A stretch of 34,203 bases of DNA from Ruminococcus sp. Lineage in GTDB: Bacteria; Bacillota; Clostridia; Oscillospirales; Acutalibacteraceae. This document shows positions 6,257 through 33,939 of this stretch, one piece after another (positions within the stretch are counted from its first letter, which is position 1; each line of letters opens with the position of its first letter). A model generated the notes under the pieces. That model searched no databases, was not told the DNA's origin, and saw only the letters and a list, made by a program, of their open reading frames with translations. The translations under genes and the position numbers were made by a program. Where the stretch lies: assembly GCA_017464765.1 (NCBI GenBank), contig JAFTYK010000045.1, positions 1 to 34,203 on the forward strand, written 5' to 3'.

Positions 6257-7186
6257 ATGAAAATTTTACTTTTTACAACAGGCGGGACTATCGCTAGTGT
6301 TATCGATGATGGTGTTATTGATGTTAAACCTCAGGGTAAGCTTTTGGTGCTTAACAAATATGCCGAAATTGATAAAGAAACTCATTTTGATGTTCTGTCT
6401 CCGATTAATATATTAAGTGAAAATATTAAGCTTTCGGATTTTAAAACTATTGTAGAAGAGTTTCGAAAAATCGACTTTTCAAATTACGATGGAGTTATTG
6501 TTACTCACGGCTCGGATACACTCGCTTATACTTCAGCACTTTTAGGACTATTGTTTTCTAATATTAAAAAGCCTGTTTGTGTTGTTGCTGCTGATAAGTC
6601 GCTTCAGGACGAAAGCTCAAATGGTATGGATAATTTCATCGCGGGCGTTGAAATTATAAAACGTGGGGTAAATGGAGTTTTTGTGCCGTACAGAAACGCT
6701 GACGGAGTGACCTATATTCACTACGCTCAGCACCTTTTCGAAAGTGATACTTTAAGCGATGATTTTTACTCTTTAGATGGAGCTTTCGCAACGTATAAAG
6801 ATAGTGAATTCAAAGTCATAGAAAAGAGAGAGACAAAGCTTTATACTATAGATGTAGATAAAGCAGACCTTGCATTTTCTAAGAGAATACTTCAGGTTAT
6901 GCCGTATCCTGATTTAGATTATAGCCGTATTGATGTGAGTGGTTTAGATGCAGTTCTTCATCGCACATATCACGCAGGGTCGGTTAGCATAAGCGAAGAT
7001 AAGGGTAGGGATATTTCTGTTCTTATTGAAAAGTGTAAAAGCGAGAATGTACCGCTATATATATGCGGTCTTAAAAGCGGTAAAGCTAACTACTACTCGA
7101 TGAGCAGTGTGCTTGATAAAGGGGTAAAACCGCTTTATGATATGGCGCCTGCGTGTGCTTTTATGAAACTGATGTTAGAAGGATAA
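6257..7186 (+). CDS. Asparaginase family protein
   Basis: A 309-residue cytoplasmic protein (no signal peptide) of the bacterial asparaginase/glutaminase family, expected to hydrolyse L-asparagine to aspartate and ammonia. The nucleophile motif TTGGTIAS is at residues 7-14. The second active-site motif is THGSDTLAYTSALL; Ser replaces the usual Thr of THGTDT, which could keep the hydroxyl. The Lys that normally completes the Thr-Asp-Lys set is not obvious in the expected region (VTYIHYAQHLF), so activity or substrate may differ. The C-terminal small domain keeps a segment like GLKSGKANY. Start ATG 6257 has a weak GCGGTG site. It is coupled to a DMT permease that begins at its stop codon. Confidence 0.8.
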   Translation: MKILLFTTGGTIASVIDDGVIDVKPQGKLLVLNKYAEIDKETHFDVLSPINILSENIKLSDFKTIVEEFRKIDFSNYDGVIVTHGSDTLAYTSALLGLLFSNIKKPVCVVAADKSLQDESSNGMDNFIAGVEIIKRGVNGVFVPYRNADGVTYIHYAQHLFESDTLSDDFYSLDGAFATYKDSEFKVIEKRETKLYTIDVDKADLAFSKRILQVMPYPDLDYSRIDVSGLDAVLHRTYHAGSVSISEDKGRDISVLIEKCKSENVPLYICGLKSGKANYYSMSSVLDKGVKPLYDMAPACAFMKLMLEG

Positions 7187-26859: not shown

Positions 26860-27999
26860 TTATTCAAAGAAACTTATGATATCGTTTTTAAAACCTGTGA
26901 TTTTGCCTTGTGCGTAGTTTGGACGTCCGCCGCCTTTTCCGGAAAACTGTTCATTTAATGCTTTTACGGTATCTCTAACATCAAGAGTAGAACTTGAAAT
27001 AATGTAGGAGAAAGTATCGTTTTCACCTTCGCTGAAAAAAGCTACAAGCTCACCTTTTTCAAGATTTTCGTTGACGAGATTTCGCATATCGTCAAACGAT
27101 GCACCTTTTGTGAAACCGAGCAGAGTTGTGCCTACTTCCTTTATATCGAGATTGGCTATTGAAAGCTCAGCGTTGAGGCGATTGATTTCAGCTTTCTGGG
27201 AGCCGATTACTTCGTGATCACGGACTACAAACTCGCTTACCTTGTCCCTTGAAGCTGAGAGCAGGTGCATAAGTTCTTTGTTATCATCGTGAAGTTTAGA
27301 GTAATCTTCAAAAGCGTTTATGCCACATACCATAGTCAGTCGCATACCGCCCTTGTACTGGATATAGTCGATGATTTTGATAAGTCCGATTTCACCTGTT
27401 TTACTTACGTGCGGAGCGCAACAAGCACATGTGTCGTATGAATCAATGTTAACAAGTCGCACACCCTCTACTAAATCAAGCTTACTTCTGTATTCAAGTG
27501 TAGAAAGAGTTTTGGGGTCAGGGTAGTAGGCGGTGACATCTCTGTTTTCGTATACCGCCATATTTGCTTTACGCTCGATTTCCTTTATATCTTCGTCAGT
27601 AAGAATACCGCTTGGGTCTAAAGTCATTGTTTTCTCACTCATATGAAAACCGAGGTTGTCATATCCAAACATCGAGTGGATAATACCTGAAACAAGATGC
27701 TCGCCTGTGTGTCCCTGCATTCGAGAAAAACGAGTGTTCCAATCTAGTTTTCCTGTCACTGTTTCACCTACTGTGAATGCTTTATCTACCTTGTGGGTGA
27801 TGATACCGTCTTTTTCCTGAACATCGAGAACTTTAGCGTCGTTTATGAAGCCTGTGTCAGCCTGTTGTCCGCCACCCTCAGGAAAGAAAGCGGTTTTATC
27901 AAGAGTGAGAAGAAAGCCGTTTTTGCATTCTTCACACGATAAGATTTCTGCTTCAAATTCTTTTATGTAAGCGTTTTCTTCGTATAGTTTAATTGTCAT
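26860..27999 (-). CDS. Alanyl-tRNA editing protein (AlaX-like, with DHHA1 domain)
   Basis: A 379-residue stand-alone relative of the AlaRS editing half, which removes Ser or Gly wrongly attached to tRNA(Ala). Seen in order: a beta-barrel domain with TAFFPEGGGQQADTGF (residues about 33-48), the zinc-site HTGEHLVSGI, the second zinc motif CACCAPHV with the C-x3-H spacing, GGMRLTMVCG, a coiled segment and a DHHA1 domain ending GKGGGRPNYAQGK. Length fits the long AlaX class. ATG 27999 has AAAGGTG six bases upstream; GTG 28008 would include that site. It follows gatB by 63 bases across a hairpin, so it may be the partly attenuated last gene of the aspS-gatAB transcript. Confidence 0.9.
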   Translation of the reverse strand: MTIKLYEENAYIKEFEAEILSCEECKNGFLLTLDKTAFFPEGGGQQADTGFINDAKVLDVQEKDGIITHKVDKAFTVGETVTGKLDWNTRFSRMQGHTGEHLVSGIIHSMFGYDNLGFHMSEKTMTLDPSGILTDEDIKEIERKANMAVYENRDVTAYYPDPKTLSTLEYRSKLDLVEGVRLVNIDSYDTCACCAPHVSKTGEIGLIKIIDYIQYKGGMRLTMVCGINAFEDYSKLHDDNKELMHLLSASRDKVSEFVVRDHEVIGSQKAEINRLNAELSIANLDIKEVGTTLLGFTKGASFDDMRNLVNENLEKGELVAFFSEGENDTFSYIISSSTLDVRDTVKALNEQFSGKGGGRPNYAQGKITGFKNDIISFFE

Positions 28000-28029
28000 A
28001 TATTTCACCTTTTTAGTAGTGATAATAAG

Positions 28030-28062: not shown

Positions 28063-29484
28063 TTAGTTTTTGAGTTTTTCGATAAGCATTGTGCGGATTT
28101 GGCCTGGGTCGCCAGAGCCTTTGAGTTCTTTCATACAAGCACCGAAAATAGCCATTAACGCTTTTTCTTTACCTGCTTTGTAGTCGGAAACTGCCTGTGG
28201 GTTACTTTCAATCGCCTTGTCAATAACCGCTTCAATCATTGAACTGTCGATTTCCTTAGTAAAGCCCTGCTCCTCACAGTAAGCAATAGGGTCAGCACCG
28301 TTTTCGATTACTGCGATGAGAGTTTTCTTAGCAGCGCCACGGTTGAGCTTGCCCTCGTCTACCTTTTTGATGAGGTAGGAAAGACCCTCTGCTGTGATTG
28401 AAAGGTCCTTGAGCTTAAGACCTGCTTTACGTAAAATACCTGCACAGTCAGTTAAAATCCACGCAGCAGCATCTTTAGCGTTACAGCCAAGAGCTATAAC
28501 ATCGTCGAGAAGTTTAGCTACTGTGTGTTCACTCATGAGCATAGCGATTTCCTTGTCAGAAATACCTGCTTCTGCGTAAGCTTCAGCTTTTTCATCTAAA
28601 GCGACTGGTTTGTTAGCTTTAATTTCCTCGAGCCATTCATCGTCAATCACGATAGGCATCAGGTTAGGGTCAGGGAAATAGCGATAGTCTGCTTCAGTTT
28701 CTTTGTTACGCATAGCAAAAGTTTTGCCTGAAACGTCGTCGAAACGGCGAGTTTCCTGAACAAGTTCTTCTGTGCCGAATTCTAAAGCGTCCATATGGCG
28801 CTGAGCTTCGTAACGGATAGCGCGGTCAATTGCTTCAAAAGAAGCCATGTTTTTAATCTCGGTACGAACACCGAATTTTTCACTTCCTTCTTCACGAACA
28901 GAGATGTTAACGTCGCAACGCATAGCACCTTCTTCGCACTCGGATATGCCTGTTGACTTAAACATAGACTTGAGCTTGCCAAGGTATGTTACAACTTCCT
29001 CAGGGGAACGAAAATCAGGCTGAGTAACGATTTCGATAAGAGGAACTGAAGTACGGTTGAAGTCAACGAATGATGAGTTGCCACCGTGAACGAGTTTACC
29101 CGCGTCTTCTTCCATATGAATCTGCTTGATTCTGATATCGCGCTCGCCAGCGGCTGTCTTTACTTTAACAAGACCGTTGACACAGATAGGGTGGTTGAGC
29201 TGAGTGATCTGATAAGCGCAAGGAAGGTCAGGATAGTAGTAATTCTTCTTATCAAAAGTTGTGTAGCGGTTAATCTCACAGTTGAGCATAAGGCCTGCTG
29301 TTGCTGCAAGTTCAACTACACGCTTGTTCATAACAGGGAGCATACCCGGCATACCAGAGCAAGCCGGACATACACAATCGTTAGGCTCTTTTGGGGAAGA
29401 ATGACCACCGCAAGAGCAGAAAATCTTAGATTCAGTATTTAATTCAACGTGGGTTTCAAGGCCGATAACGAGTTCGTATGCCAT
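28063..29484 (-). CDS. gatB: Asp-tRNA(Asn)/Glu-tRNA(Gln) amidotransferase subunit B
   Basis: A 473-residue subunit that phosphorylates the tRNA-bound Asp or Glu side chain and lets ammonia replace the phosphate. The domain appears complete and normal: VIGLETHVELNTESKIFC near the start, the zinc cysteines CSCGG and CVCPACSGMPGMLPVMN, YYYPDLPCAYQITQ, the catalytic HMEEDAGKLVHG and DFNRTSVPLIEIVT, RCDVNISVR, and the C-terminal YqeY-like tRNA-binding tail. ATG 29484 is six bases after AAGGTGA and is preferred; ATG 29490 overlaps the gatA stop as ATGA but is too close to that site. Either way gatB is coupled to gatA. Its intact active site contrasts with the degenerate GatA next to it. Confidence 0.95.
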   Translation of the reverse strand: MAYELVIGLETHVELNTESKIFCSCGGHSSPKEPNDCVCPACSGMPGMLPVMNKRVVELAATAGLMLNCEINRYTTFDKKNYYYPDLPCAYQITQLNHPICVNGLVKVKTAAGERDIRIKQIHMEEDAGKLVHGGNSSFVDFNRTSVPLIEIVTQPDFRSPEEVVTYLGKLKSMFKSTGISECEEGAMRCDVNISVREEGSEKFGVRTEIKNMASFEAIDRAIRYEAQRHMDALEFGTEELVQETRRFDDVSGKTFAMRNKETEADYRYFPDPNLMPIVIDDEWLEEIKANKPVALDEKAEAYAEAGISDKEIAMLMSEHTVAKLLDDVIALGCNAKDAAAWILTDCAGILRKAGLKLKDLSITAEGLSYLIKKVDEGKLNRGAAKKTLIAVIENGADPIAYCEEQGFTKEIDSSMIEAVIDKAIESNPQAVSDYKAGKEKALMAIFGACMKELKGSGDPGQIRTMLIEKLKN

Positions 29485-29486
29485 AA

Positions 29487-30686
29487 TCATTCACCTTTCC
29501 TTTCCACGATTTTTGACAGTGATAACAGTTTGCTTTCGTCAAACTGCTTTGAAATAAGCTGTACACCACAAGATACTAAAGCAGGAAGACCAATGAGGTT
29601 TGGTACTGCTGTGAACACGCTTTCCTCAAAAACCTTTGTGAACGCGTCTTTGATATCGTAAGCCTTGTACTCAGATTTTGAGCAAACAGGAGTGAGTACA
29701 GCGTCGTATTTTGAGAATAACTCTTTCATTTTTTCAGCTACTACACGTCTAACTCTGAGTGCCTTATCGTAGCAGTCGTTGTAACGTGTCTTAGAAAGCA
29801 CATCGGAGCCGTAGAGGATAACAGCTTTTGTTAAGAAGTTGAAGCCCTCTGTACGTGAGTTTACGTAAAGCTCATCGATATTTCTGTAGTTTTCACTTCT
29901 GTGGCCGTACTTAACGCCATCGTAACGTGAAACGTTGTTGCAAGTTTCAGCGCACATAAGAATCTGCCAAGCTGTGTTAGCAGCTTCGAAGAAATCACAA
30001 GAGATTTCTTCAACTTCAACACCCTGAGCTTTGAGAGTTTCAGCGTAAGAAACGATGTTAGCTTTTACATCATCGTCAGCTTTGTCGAGAAGCTCTTTCA
30101 CGATGCAAACTTTAGCGTTCTTCACGTCAGCGTTTGTGTCGTAGGTGTAAGAAGATTCAAAAAGTGAAGTGCCGTCTTTTTTGTCATTACCTGCGATAAC
30201 AGTCATAATTTCAGCTACTGTATCAGCGTCCTTGCCGTAAACACCGAGCTGTTCACCTGATGCTGCGCAAGAGATAACACCGTAACGTGAAACTGTGCCG
30301 TAGGTTGGCTTTAGGAAAGCTACGTTTGAAAGAGCGGCGGCACGACGTGTAGCGCCGTTCATATCAACACCTAAAGCGGCTTTTACATCGCCTGATTTTA
30401 CAAGTTCTGCGGCTGCACCCTTGAGTGTTTCGCCATCTTCAAACTTATTGTAGTAGGAAAACTCGCCGACTAAATCCAAACCAAACTCGCCAACGTGAGT
30501 TTTGCCTGAGATGTTAAAGCCGTTTTTCTCTAATCTTTCTACAGCTTCGGCTGAGAAAAGAGGTTTATATCCCTCTAGAATATGTGAACCTGCGGTAGAA
30601 AGAGTATCCTTAGTAAGGATAGTATCATCAACCGCGATAGCACCTTTTTCGTTAATAATTTCTGCGTAATATTTCACTGCACTCAC
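29487..30686 (-). CDS. GatA-like amidase-fold subunit with all catalytic triad residues replaced
   Basis: A 399-residue homologue of GatA, which normally hydrolyses glutamine to feed ammonia to GatB. Similarity is clear in FLKPTYGTVSRYGVISCAASGEQLGVYGKDA, the GatA-specific SRYDGVKYGHRSENYRNIDELYVNSRTEGFN, and YNDCYDKALRVRRVV. It is about 85 residues shorter than usual: the N-terminal helices are gone. The amidase signature is erased. Catalytic Lys (I-K-D) is Asp20, the cis-Ser of the SSGGS loop aligns with Leu88, and the nucleophile of GGSIRQP aligns with Ala112 (NGATRRA). A GADGLPLG-like loop near the end is also missing. The ORF is intact, so this looks like selected loss of glutaminase activity. 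Start: GTG 30686, or GTG 30677, which fits the GAGGTGAG site better. Confidence 0.88.
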   Translation of the reverse strand: MSAVKYYAEIINEKGAIAVDDTILTKDTLSTAGSHILEGYKPLFSAEAVERLEKNGFNISGKTHVGEFGLDLVGEFSYYNKFEDGETLKGAAAELVKSGDVKAALGVDMNGATRRAAALSNVAFLKPTYGTVSRYGVISCAASGEQLGVYGKDADTVAEIMTVIAGNDKKDGTSLFESSYTYDTNADVKNAKVCIVKELLDKADDDVKANIVSYAETLKAQGVEVEEISCDFFEAANTAWQILMCAETCNNVSRYDGVKYGHRSENYRNIDELYVNSRTEGFNFLTKAVILYGSDVLSKTRYNDCYDKALRVRRVVAEKMKELFSKYDAVLTPVCSKSEYKAYDIKDAFTKVFEESVFTAVPNLIGLPALVSCGVQLISKQFDESKLLSLSKIVERKGE

Positions 30687-30687
30687 C

Positions 30688-32763
30688 TCACTTTACTAGT
30701 CTTGGAACGACCCAAGAGTCATCACTACGCTGTGGAGCTGATTCGAGCAAGCTCTCGCGAGTGAACGGCTGAACACGTTTGTCTTCTCTAAGCACGTTTG
30801 TCATTTCCATAACGTGAACCATAGGGGTAACGTTTTCTGTATCGATAGATTTTAGAGCTTCTTCGCTTTCTTTCATATTGTTAAAAATGCTCTGCATTAA
30901 AGCTTCTTCCTCATCATTAAGAGAAAGCTGATTTAACTGCTGAGAGTTAGAGAAAGTGGAGCGTTTGCCCATGCTTGCTTTTGCTCCCCCTTTGGCAGAG
31001 CCACGATGAGCAAGAGCGTTAGTGTTGCCAAGAAGGTGAACGTCCTCAAGCTGTTGGTCGGACACTTCGGAAGGAGCGCCTAAGAGTAAATCCTGAGCGT
31101 TACCGTTGAGTGGGACTGCGATAACGTCTAAGATTTTCTCTTCGTCTGTAAGAAGCATAACCATACGGTCGATACCAGGAGCCATACCTGCGTGTGGTGG
31201 CGCGCCGTACTGGAATGCTGTGTAAAGTGCATTGAAACGCTTTTTGAGTTCACTCTCTTCGTAGCCTGCGATTTCAAACGCTTTCTTCATAATTTCAATG
31301 TCGTGGTTTCTTACAGCACCGGAAGCAAGCTCAATACCGTTACAAACAAGGTCATACTGATAAGCTAAAACTTCCTCAGGGTGCTTGTTAAGTAAAGCGT
31401 CCATACCGCCCTGAGGCATTGAGAATGGGTTATGTGTGAAGATTGTTTCGCCTGTTTCCTCGTCTTCCTCAAACATAGGGAAGTCAACTACGAAGCAAAA
31501 TTCGAAAGCATCGTCTCTGATTAAGTCAAGCTGAGTATCAGCTGCAAGCCAAGTACGAATCATACCAGCTTTTTTCTCTGTGTCTGACTTCTTATCATCG
31601 CAGATGAAGAAGAGTGTTTCGCCTTCTTTAACGCCTGAAATCTCGGTGATTTCCTGCTTTTGTTCGTCAGATAAGAATTTAGCAATAGGACCAGCAAAAA
31701 CGCCCTCTTTAAGAGTGATGTAACCTAAACCGCCGAGGCCTACTTCCATAGAAGTAGCGTATTTTAGTGAGTCTTCGAAGAATTTCTTAGACTTACCCTG
31801 ACAGTTAGCAACAATACCACGAACAGGCTTGCCCTTGAAAGCAGGGAAAGCGACGTTAGAGAAGAAATCTGTGAGGTCACAGATAACAAGAGGGTTGCGT
31901 AAATCAGGCTTATCAGAGCCGTATGTCATCATAGCATCAGCGTAGGTGATACGTCTGAAAGGTTTAGGAGTAACTTTCTTGTCGGAGAAAGTTTTGAATG
32001 TATCGTAGATAACATCTTCGCAGATGTCTAATACTTCTTCCTGTGTAGCGAAAGCCATCTCGAAGTCGAGCTGATAGAACTCACCAGGAGAACGGTCAGC
32101 TCTAGCGTCTTCGTCTCTAAAACAAGGAGCTACCTGAAAGTATCTGTCAAAGCCTGATACCATAAGTAACTGCTTGAACTGCTGAGGAGCCTGTGGCAAA
32201 GCGTAGAACTTGCCAGGGTGCTTACGAGATGGTACTAAGAAGTCACGCGCACCCTCAGGAGATGAAGCGGTGAGGATTGGTGTTTGCATATCAAGGAAGT
32301 TTTTCTCTTCCATTTTATTACGTAAGTGACGGATAATCTTAGAACGCATAACGAGGTTGTTGTGGTTCTTAGGATTACGTAAATCAAGGTATCGATACTT
32401 AAGGCGGATTTCGTCCTTTGAAGCACGAGAGTTAGAAACCTCGAAAGGAAGCATATTTGTGCTTCTGCCAAGTACCTGTAAAGTATCAGCTACAAGTTCA
32501 ACATAACCTGTAGCGATTTTTTCGTTAACTGTGTCAGGGTCTCTTTTTTCGACCTTACCTGTAACTGAAATAACAGTTTCGCGGTTAACGTTTTCGAGCA
32601 GTTTTTCATCGTGAACGACAACCTGAGTGATACCTGTGTAATCTCTCAAATCAACGAAGATTACGCCACCGTGGTCACGGATAACGTCAACCCAACCAGC
32701 AAGAGATACAGTTGAGCCAACGTGGGTATCACGTATGTCGTTACAAAATAGTGTTCTGTACAT
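30688..32763 (-). CDS. aspS-gatC: Aspartyl-tRNA synthetase fused to a C-terminal GatC domain
   Basis: A 691-residue fusion. Residues 1-577 are a complete bacterial AspRS: OB-fold anticodon domain, class II motif 2 (FRDEDARADRSPGEFYQLDFEMAF), GAD insertion (about 280-420), and motif 3 (GAPPHAGMAPGIDRMVMLL), ending GAPSEVSDQQLEDVHL. A 30-residue flexible linker rich in Ser, Lys, Gly and Ala follows. Residues about 608-691 match GatC (LNDEEEALM, IDTENVTPMVHVMEMTNVLRED, ESAPQRSDDSWVVPRLV). No separate gatC is present. His31 (RDHGGVIF) is the residue of non-discriminating AspRS, where discriminating enzymes have Leu. The fusion should tie Asp-tRNA(Asn) formation to amidation. ATG 32763 has GGAGG; the stop is one base before gatA. 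Confidence 0.93.
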   Translation of the reverse strand: MYRTLFCNDIRDTHVGSTVSLAGWVDVIRDHGGVIFVDLRDYTGITQVVVHDEKLLENVNRETVISVTGKVEKRDPDTVNEKIATGYVELVADTLQVLGRSTNMLPFEVSNSRASKDEIRLKYRYLDLRNPKNHNNLVMRSKIIRHLRNKMEEKNFLDMQTPILTASSPEGARDFLVPSRKHPGKFYALPQAPQQFKQLLMVSGFDRYFQVAPCFRDEDARADRSPGEFYQLDFEMAFATQEEVLDICEDVIYDTFKTFSDKKVTPKPFRRITYADAMMTYGSDKPDLRNPLVICDLTDFFSNVAFPAFKGKPVRGIVANCQGKSKKFFEDSLKYATSMEVGLGGLGYITLKEGVFAGPIAKFLSDEQKQEITEISGVKEGETLFFICDDKKSDTEKKAGMIRTWLAADTQLDLIRDDAFEFCFVVDFPMFEEDEETGETIFTHNPFSMPQGGMDALLNKHPEEVLAYQYDLVCNGIELASGAVRNHDIEIMKKAFEIAGYEESELKKRFNALYTAFQYGAPPHAGMAPGIDRMVMLLTDEEKILDVIAVPLNGNAQDLLLGAPSEVSDQQLEDVHLLGNTNALAHRGSAKGGAKASMGKRSTFSNSQQLNQLSLNDEEEALMQSIFNNMKESEEALKSIDTENVTPMVHVMEMTNVLREDKRVQPFTRESLLESAPQRSDDSWVVPRLVK

Positions 32764-33318: not shown

Positions 33319-33939
33319 TTACTCGCTTTTGATACCTGCTAAATGCCTCTGGATAGCGGTAGCGTCCATTACAGAAACTTTTCGATCGCGGTCAAAATCG
33401 GCCACTTTATACTCCTCAGTATAGCTAGAGTTGTACTTATTTTCTACTAAACCTCTCTGGAGTGTAGTAGCATCCAGTATACTAAGACATTCGTCTGAAT
33501 CAGTATCACCGAGAAGTTCTCCAAAGCGCACTTTGTTATTAATCACATCTTCTAAATCTTCGTATTTTTCTAACACTTGATAAGTGTCCACACCAATAAA
33601 GCAGTCCAGTTTCACATCATATACTGCATATAAAGCACCGAACGGATAACCATGGGAGCCTACGTACACTCTGTTTCCGATTACAGCGCTATAAATCATT
33701 TCTTCCAAATTGATATTACCATGCACCAAAACCCAGTCGATTTCGCTATCCGGATCATTTTCGTCTATATGATGATAATAACGCTCTGCATAATTGTAAT
33801 AATCCTCATAGCCGGATCCCTCCACATATTGTTCAAAAAATCTATTCTCATACAAGTAATTAGTTTCAGCAAAAAATGTAGTAGCAGATAGCGCTAAAAG
33901 CATTACTGCTATGAGTATAATACTAATTATTCTTTTCAT
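33319..33939 (-). CDS. Small secreted dockerin protein with an unknown N-terminal domain
   Basis: A 206-residue protein: signal peptide (MKRIISIILIAVMLLALSAT..FFA, cut near residue 25), an acidic Tyr-rich domain of about 110 residues (YVEGSGYEDYYNYAERYYHH ... VGSHGYPFGALYAVYDV ... FIGVDTYQVLEKY) that I do not recognise, and a C-terminal type I dockerin (about 140-204) with DTDSDECLSILDATTLQRG and DFDRDRKVSVMDATAIQRHL. It has no visible catalytic motif, so it may be a binding or inhibitor module docked onto a scaffold. RBS GGAGG lies nine bases before ATG 33939. Confidence 0.85.
   Translation of the reverse strand: MKRIISIILIAVMLLALSATTFFAETNYLYENRFFEQYVEGSGYEDYYNYAERYYHHIDENDPDSEIDWVLVHGNINLEEMIYSAVIGNRVYVGSHGYPFGALYAVYDVKLDCFIGVDTYQVLEKYEDLEDVINNKVRFGELLGDTDSDECLSILDATTLQRGLVENKYNSSYTEEYKVADFDRDRKVSVMDATAIQRHLAGIKSE

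Follow-up and report, generated by a model that had tools for sequence, protein, structure and literature searches.

The operon described here probably encodes an asparagine-only amidotransferase that uses ammonia from outside GatA, most likely the ammonium of the cell. It lies in the window, the whole 34,203-nucleotide stretch of Ruminococcus DNA that was analysed, and its GatA homologue lacks the glutaminase residues. The GatCAB enzyme of the literature has two coupled sites, a glutaminase and a transamidase (PMC4027206), and the operon would be a natural, clade-wide and apparently essential version of GatCAB without a glutaminase site. No description of such an enzyme was found in the open-access literature, a scope that leaves out most subscription papers. 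The system offers a test of the roles of GatA beyond glutamine hydrolysis, of ammonia entry into GatB and of the function of a GatB lysine, and it may tie asparagine decoding to ammonia in gut bacteria.

The genes of the operon lie head to tail on the minus strand in the order AspRS-GatC, GatA homologue, GatB, AlaX-like gene. Below, the window's GatA homologue and its relatives without glutaminase residues are called dead, and the control GatAs are called live. The features of the window, with the evidence for each, are as follows.

30688..32763, minus strand: second AspRS fused to GatC (691 amino acids, residues 615-686 forming the GatC domain), separated by 1 base from the dead gatA (profiles)
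29487..30686, minus strand: dead GatA (399 amino acids) without glutaminase residues (open frame, GTG start, family profiles, alignments)
30627..30629, minus strand: codon of Asp20, equivalent to Lys79 of Staphylococcus aureus GatA (alignment)
30423..30425, minus strand: codon of Leu88, equivalent to cis-Ser154 (alignment)
30351..30353, minus strand: codon of Ala112, equivalent to the nucleophile Ser178 (alignment)
29820..29822, minus strand: codon of Val289, equivalent to the glutamine-binding Arg358 (alignment)
29619..29621, minus strand: codon of Ser356, equivalent to Asp425, which binds the glutamine amide (alignment)
28063..29490, minus strand: GatB (475 amino acids), catalytic residues kept, 4-base overlap with the dead gatA (family profile, alignment)
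29218..29220, minus strand: codon of GatB Cys91, equivalent to S. aureus GatB Lys88 (alignment)
26860..28008, minus strand: AlaX/AlaRS-editing-like protein (382 amino acids), downstream (profiles, flank clustering)
6257..7186, plus strand: asparaginase/GatD-like protein (309 amino acids), on the operon's contig at a distance of 20.9 kb (its relatives adjoin the operon in other genomes)

Glutaminase residues in the GatA homologue and its relatives

Residues were mapped with phmmer alignments to solved GatAs and with MAFFT alignments. In S. aureus numbering, both place Asp20 at Lys79, Leu88 at cis-Ser154 and Ala112 at Ser178, exactly the replacement of the triad that the first-pass annotation of this DNA had proposed. 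That annotation had also described a shortened signature loop and a missing N terminus. The alignments agree, the GGSSGG loop is shorter and substituted, and 19 residues precede the position of the catalytic Lys compared with 74 in a live control, so that about 55 are absent. The protein is nevertheless a GatA homologue in an open frame, as had been proposed, and stands in an operon with AspRS-GatC and GatB. It scores 186.6 bits against the Pfam Amidase family (PF01425, gathering threshold 27), which means homology and not activity, and its 271 bits lie under the NCBIfam gatA cut-off of 481 (TIGR00132).

The window protein has also lost Arg358 (Val289) and Asp425 (Ser356), the pair that we take to be the glutamine-binding residues under S. 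aureus GatA numbering. In yeast the residues that hold glutamine are reported to be R334 and D418 (PMC4027206). We matched these to Arg358 and Asp425 by their spacing and by a shared Glu four residues before the Arg.

Relatives are 79-83% identical to the window protein (four congeners), 67-68% (two other families of the order) or 46% (a third family). Matches to its profile above 380 bits occur in 17 of the 394 genomes in our sample of the order; weaker odd matches, for example in genomes G062, G064 and G079, fall outside this count and may include more dead GatAs. In 84,980 species genomes, scanning turned up 205 stretches with a relative, possibly including live GatAs, and the best 80 of these 205 were used as named loci. 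The record titles of these 80 name Ruminococcus, Oscillospiraceae, Lachnospiraceae and other Clostridia or Bacillota metagenome-assembled genomes, with ruminant colon, rectum or cecum as the source in 53. One-frame AspRS+GatC, GatA and GatB ORFs are present at 76 of the 80. The exceptions are three loci where the contig begins too late and L248, which has no labelled GatA or GatB ORFs.

The dead set was picked by similarity to the window protein and not by its triad residues. It holds 94 distinct GatA rows, namely 79 named loci, the window and 14 further loci. Lys79, cis-Ser154 and Arg358 are kept in none of the 94, Asp425 in one and Ser178 in 35. In the 40 live controls, Lys79 is kept in 39 (the other row has a gap) and each of the other four residues in all 40. 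The nucleophile position of the dead rows holds Ala in 53, Ser in 35, Thr in five and a gap in one. The loss common to the family is thus limited to the Lys, the cis-Ser and the glutamine-binding residues, and the nucleophile Ser is not uniformly lost. It is well supported that a complex containing a dead GatA could not obtain ammonia from glutamine by the usual route, as had been claimed for the window, given the clade-wide loss of these residues. Judged by residues, the glutaminase half is missing what it needs at each GatA position checked, and the steps from GatB onward should work as in GatCAB.

New residues have become fixed in the dead GatAs. In 92 of the 94 rows, position 20, where the Lys was, is acidic and Arg115 stands in place of the Gln located three positions C-terminal to Ser178; this suggests a salt bridge in the old active site. 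The Glu four residues before the Arg358 position is Leu in 92 of 94, and Asn110, Glu145 and Cys249 are further new residues that are nearly fixed. The pattern recurs in 94 distinct loci, which rules out chance or sequencing error as its cause. Values of dN/dS for the dead GatA are 0.11-0.16 in all ten pairs of five congeners. The corresponding ranges are 0.04-0.08 in ten GatB pairs and 0.06-0.10 in six AspRS-GatC pairs from four genomes. A pseudogene is ruled out by these values and by the conservation of the dead GatA across loci.

The GatBs of the dead set form one clade (SH-aLRT 99) in a tree of 80 rows, 39 chosen from the 93 dead-set GatBs and 41 live, made by a quick method and containing long branches. 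Several independent losses of the glutaminase are unsupported, since the dead-set GatBs are monophyletic in this tree. Because they duplicate named loci, L124-L127 are not part of the locus sets. The duplicates L129, L187 and L313 were dropped from the row and neighbour counts, and L129 and L313 also from the flank clustering. L134 (a third reduced GatA, in genome G036) and L137 are outside the sets, and the GatA of L314 is absent from the rows. The live control set is non-random and comprises 40 regions (listed or same-genus matches) plus seven more. Three of these 47 have no labelled GatA or GatB ORF, and the counts used 40 GatA and 41 GatB rows.

Some members are reduced further. In G040 (L132:7857-8738) the homologue has 293 amino acids with the catalytic middle deleted. 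It stands beside AspRS, GatC and GatB in a genome that also has AsnRS, and it is further decay within the same clade. In G162 (L322:8117-9109) the frame is cut to 330 amino acids by an in-frame stop in the assembly, which is either an error or real decay. The match in G188 also contains a stop, and its ORF is 383 amino acids long.

Operon partners and the route to Asn-tRNA

The GatB of the window scores 562 bits (NCBIfam cut-off 338). Its active site had been called intact, which stands for the catalytic residues: E12, H14, E127, E128, E153 and D193 are invariant in 93 of 93 dead-set GatBs. It does not extend to the equivalent of Lys88, presumably part of the ammonia-channel gate, which is Cys91 in the window. 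Across the 93 dead-set GatBs this position is Cys in 82, Ala in seven, Ser in two, Asn in two and Lys in none; 40 of the 41 live controls have Lys there. The sole live-set GatB without it is L332:6966-8396, which has Ala. Genome G045 contains both kinds, and there the dead-set GatB has Cys and the live-set GatB has Lys.

The GatC domain at the C-terminus of the AspRS scores 60.1 bits (TIGR00135 cut-off 47.1). AspRS-GatC fusions also adjoin live-set GatAs of 483-484 amino acids (L341:4461-6584 and L354:4346-6433), so the fusion and the missing glutaminase need not go together. Deep lineages of dead GatA carry a separate GatC. In G045 (L128:8555-11764) the dead GatA and GatB lie beside an AspRS without a GatC domain. 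The sole GatC seen in this genome is that of the live set, on another contig, and the two sets might share it. Elsewhere in the window, positions 33319-33939 encode a small secreted-looking protein whose end resembles a dockerin pair by eye.

The window's own genome is 67% complete, and its congener G016 is 99% complete. Typing of the class II D/K/N synthetase matches of G016 gave only AspRS1, AspRS-GatC and LysRS, with no AsnRS among them. G016 has two GluRS/GlnRS-class genes, one of them typed as GlnRS, and a single GatB. From this gene content the dead GatA, GatB and AspRS-GatC appear to be the only route to Asn-tRNA in G016, and with GlnRS present the complex should serve Asn only.

Thirteen further dead-GatA genomes have two AspRS-like matches each, a LysRS-like match in 11 and an AsnRS-like match in none, as judged by score and length. 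LysRS was confirmed by family scan in G092 and G338 (both among the 13), G016 and G000. G212 (96% complete) has no LysRS of this class, so a synthetase gene may have been missed there. Two GluRS/GlnRS-class genes are present in 12 of the 13; in the other, G221, neither a GluRS nor a GlnRS gene was found, which suggests an assembly gap. G045 has one GluRS/GlnRS-class gene and, besides its dead set, a second GatCAB with the Lys kept. With a single gene of this class, G045 needs the live GatCAB for Gln-tRNA.

GatCAB is reported to recognise the U1-A72 pair (PMC4206432, PMC9976931). We sought tRNA-Asn by pattern in 22 dead-GatA genomes and in controls. It was matched in three of the 22 (G014, G016 and G179, the window's genome not being among them), each time with U1-A72. 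The pair is also present in both matched controls, G012 (live GatA) and G037 (which has AsnRS), so the result agrees with our reading and does not discriminate.

Sources of ammonia

In the mechanism we favour, the AspRS-GatC fusion would charge tRNA-Asn with aspartate, and GatB would phosphorylate the aspartate side chain and then amidate it. The dead GatA would no longer be a glutaminase; it would still serve the complex structurally and form the end at which ammonia enters the path. The ammonia would be mainly the cell's ammonium, which is expected to be plentiful in the gut habitat, and in part of the clade it might be released by the neighbouring asparaginase/GatD-like protein. Formation of the complex, charging by the fusion, use of ammonia and its source are all points that we infer. 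Work on the yeast homologue reports NH4Cl as an amide donor, and one mutant, truncated in the subunit lying over the GatA site, used NH4Cl better than the full-length form (PMC4027206). The Ser at the nucleophile position in 35 of 94 dead rows weakens the reading.

A more specific design is conceivable, and we put it forward tentatively, at somewhat less than an even chance. Here the dead GatA would be a non-catalytic ammonia port in which an acidic-Arg pair (Asp/Glu20 and Arg115) has taken the place of the Lys-Ser-Ser site. The path would have lost positive charge through the change of Lys79 to Asp in GatA and of Lys88 to Cys or Ala in GatB, and ammonia would be drawn directly from the environment or supplied by a docked partner of the asparaginase/GatD-like type. 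If this is true, the reading of asparagine codons would be tied to the supply of ammonia and not of glutamine.

Three other explanations have little to recommend them. The dead GatA could still hydrolyse glutamine or another amide through a rebuilt site, using for example Asp20, Asp21, Arg114, Arg115 or a new nucleophile. Conservation of the new residues almost matches that of the old ones (the acidic 20 with Arg115, and Asn110, Glu145 and Cys249), and the protein is under purifying selection. However, Arg358 and Asp425 are lost, the nearby Glu has become Leu, the nucleophile position drifts among Ala, Ser and Thr, and the most degraded member, in G040, lacks the whole region; we regard a rebuilt site as very unlikely. 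It is similarly improbable that the complex no longer makes Asn-tRNA and that its GatA and GatB are leftovers or have another role. The much shortened GatA of G040 would fit this reading, as would the interrupted frame of G162, and shortening is expected if the route becomes dispensable once AsnRS is present. Against it, AsnRS was not found in G016 and the 13 further dead-GatA genomes, the GatB active site is invariant and all parts are under strong purifying selection. The borrowing of a live GatA encoded elsewhere in the genome, which the first-pass annotation had suggested, is excluded where it could be tested and is exceedingly unlikely overall. G045 does have both kinds, but the live GatA there is accompanied by a GatB (Lys kept) and a GatC that belong to the live set. 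Searches with PF01425 and the dead-GatA profile found no second GatA in G016 or in most other dead-GatA genomes. There is one amidase-signature gene in G016, which rules out a second GatA there unless the assembly misses a gene, and the less complete G000, G011, G014, G025 and G058 likewise have a single one. Only one GatA match was found in 15 of the 17 dead-GatA genomes from the order sample, seven of these 15 being at least 90% complete; the exceptions are G045 and G046, where the gene is split over two contigs.

The asparaginase/GatD-like protein could be the true amide-donor subunit: docked on the dead GatA or on GatB, it would supply ammonia taken from glutamine or asparagine and so be a bacterial counterpart of GatD in GatDE. 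At 28 of the 94 distinct dead loci its gene and the operon are no more than 2 kb apart, with the gene on the same strand downstream in 14 and upstream in six, overlapping in three and on the other strand in five, and it takes five arrangements relative to the operon. When only loci with at least 1.5 kb downstream and at least 1.4 kb upstream are counted, 21 of 74 dead loci have the gene no further than 1.5 kb away, and none of the 38 live loci do (Fisher p 7e-5, the loci not being independent; 23 of 75 dead before duplicates were removed). When 1147 flanking ORFs were clustered, the AlaX-like family adjoined 29 dead and no live loci, and the asparaginase-like family 28 dead and no live loci. 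The other dead-only families occur at 13 loci or fewer each, so these two are the only widely recurring ones, and other ammonia suppliers among the neighbours were rejected on this ground. In the order sample a PF00710 gene is present in 15 of the 17 dead-GatA genomes, 14 of them with the low-scoring type; of the remaining 377 genomes 139 have one, and G040, counted with these, has none. Its absence beside live operons is more than a plain lack of such genes: 18 live-control genomes have a PF00710 gene, which at the 17 positions listed is over 1 Mb from GatA or on a different contig.

GatD and type I asparaginases, the nearest solved relatives of the neighbour, use a catalytic Thr, a Thr-Asp pair and a Lys as active residues. 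The GGT and HGTD motifs are kept in most of 35 rows. The Lys position, however, has no conserved Lys and is ambiguous (Arg/His170, a variable 172, Gln173), and activity is doubtful. Two of the proteins score 88-91 bits against asparaginase I (NCBIfam cut-off 260.5) and 61-92 bits against GatD (cut-offs 310 and 324). Also against a donor subunit, no gene was found in G045 (97% complete), G040 (90%) or G296 (72%), the window's genus has the gene away from the operon, four of five live-GatA congeners searched carry it too, and at least 18 genomes without a dead GatA carry the low-scoring type. The neighbour searches used three dead-clade or window sequences as queries and are biased to that type. 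On balance a dedicated donor subunit is unlikely, although the presence of this neighbour at dead loci only lends some substance to the earlier idea of another donor. Cellular ammonium is the likelier general source and the neighbour a possible helper, since the gene is absent or distant in some genomes and no conserved Lys could be aligned at its catalytic position.

Relation to known systems

The system resembles GatCAB: its GatB has all checked catalytic residues and scores above the NCBIfam cut-off, a GatC domain is present, its GatA is homologous apart from the active site, and the operon includes AspRS. Unlike GatCAB, its GatA has neither the triad nor the glutamine-binding residues and is about 55 residues shorter at the N-terminus, its GatB in the window has no Lys88 equivalent, its GatC is fused to AspRS and, by gene content, it would serve Asn only. 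Archaeal GatDE offers the precedent of an asparaginase-type supplier for a GatB/GatE-type enzyme, and GatD is among the solved relatives of the neighbour. In contrast to GatD, the neighbour lacks the first 90 or so residues, falls under the GatD cut-offs and shows no conserved catalytic Lys in an uncertain alignment, and the window system keeps a GatA and would act on tRNA-Asn.

AsnA acts on free aspartate and not on tRNA, and we know of no relationship between it and GatCAB. It is a strictly ammonia-dependent asparagine synthetase and provides a parallel for the direct use of ammonia in making asparagine (PMC3854871). The AspRS-GatC fusion shares its domain order with the fusion NF009460 (PRK12820), but scores 461 bits against that family's cut-off of 1379 and adjoins a dead GatA.
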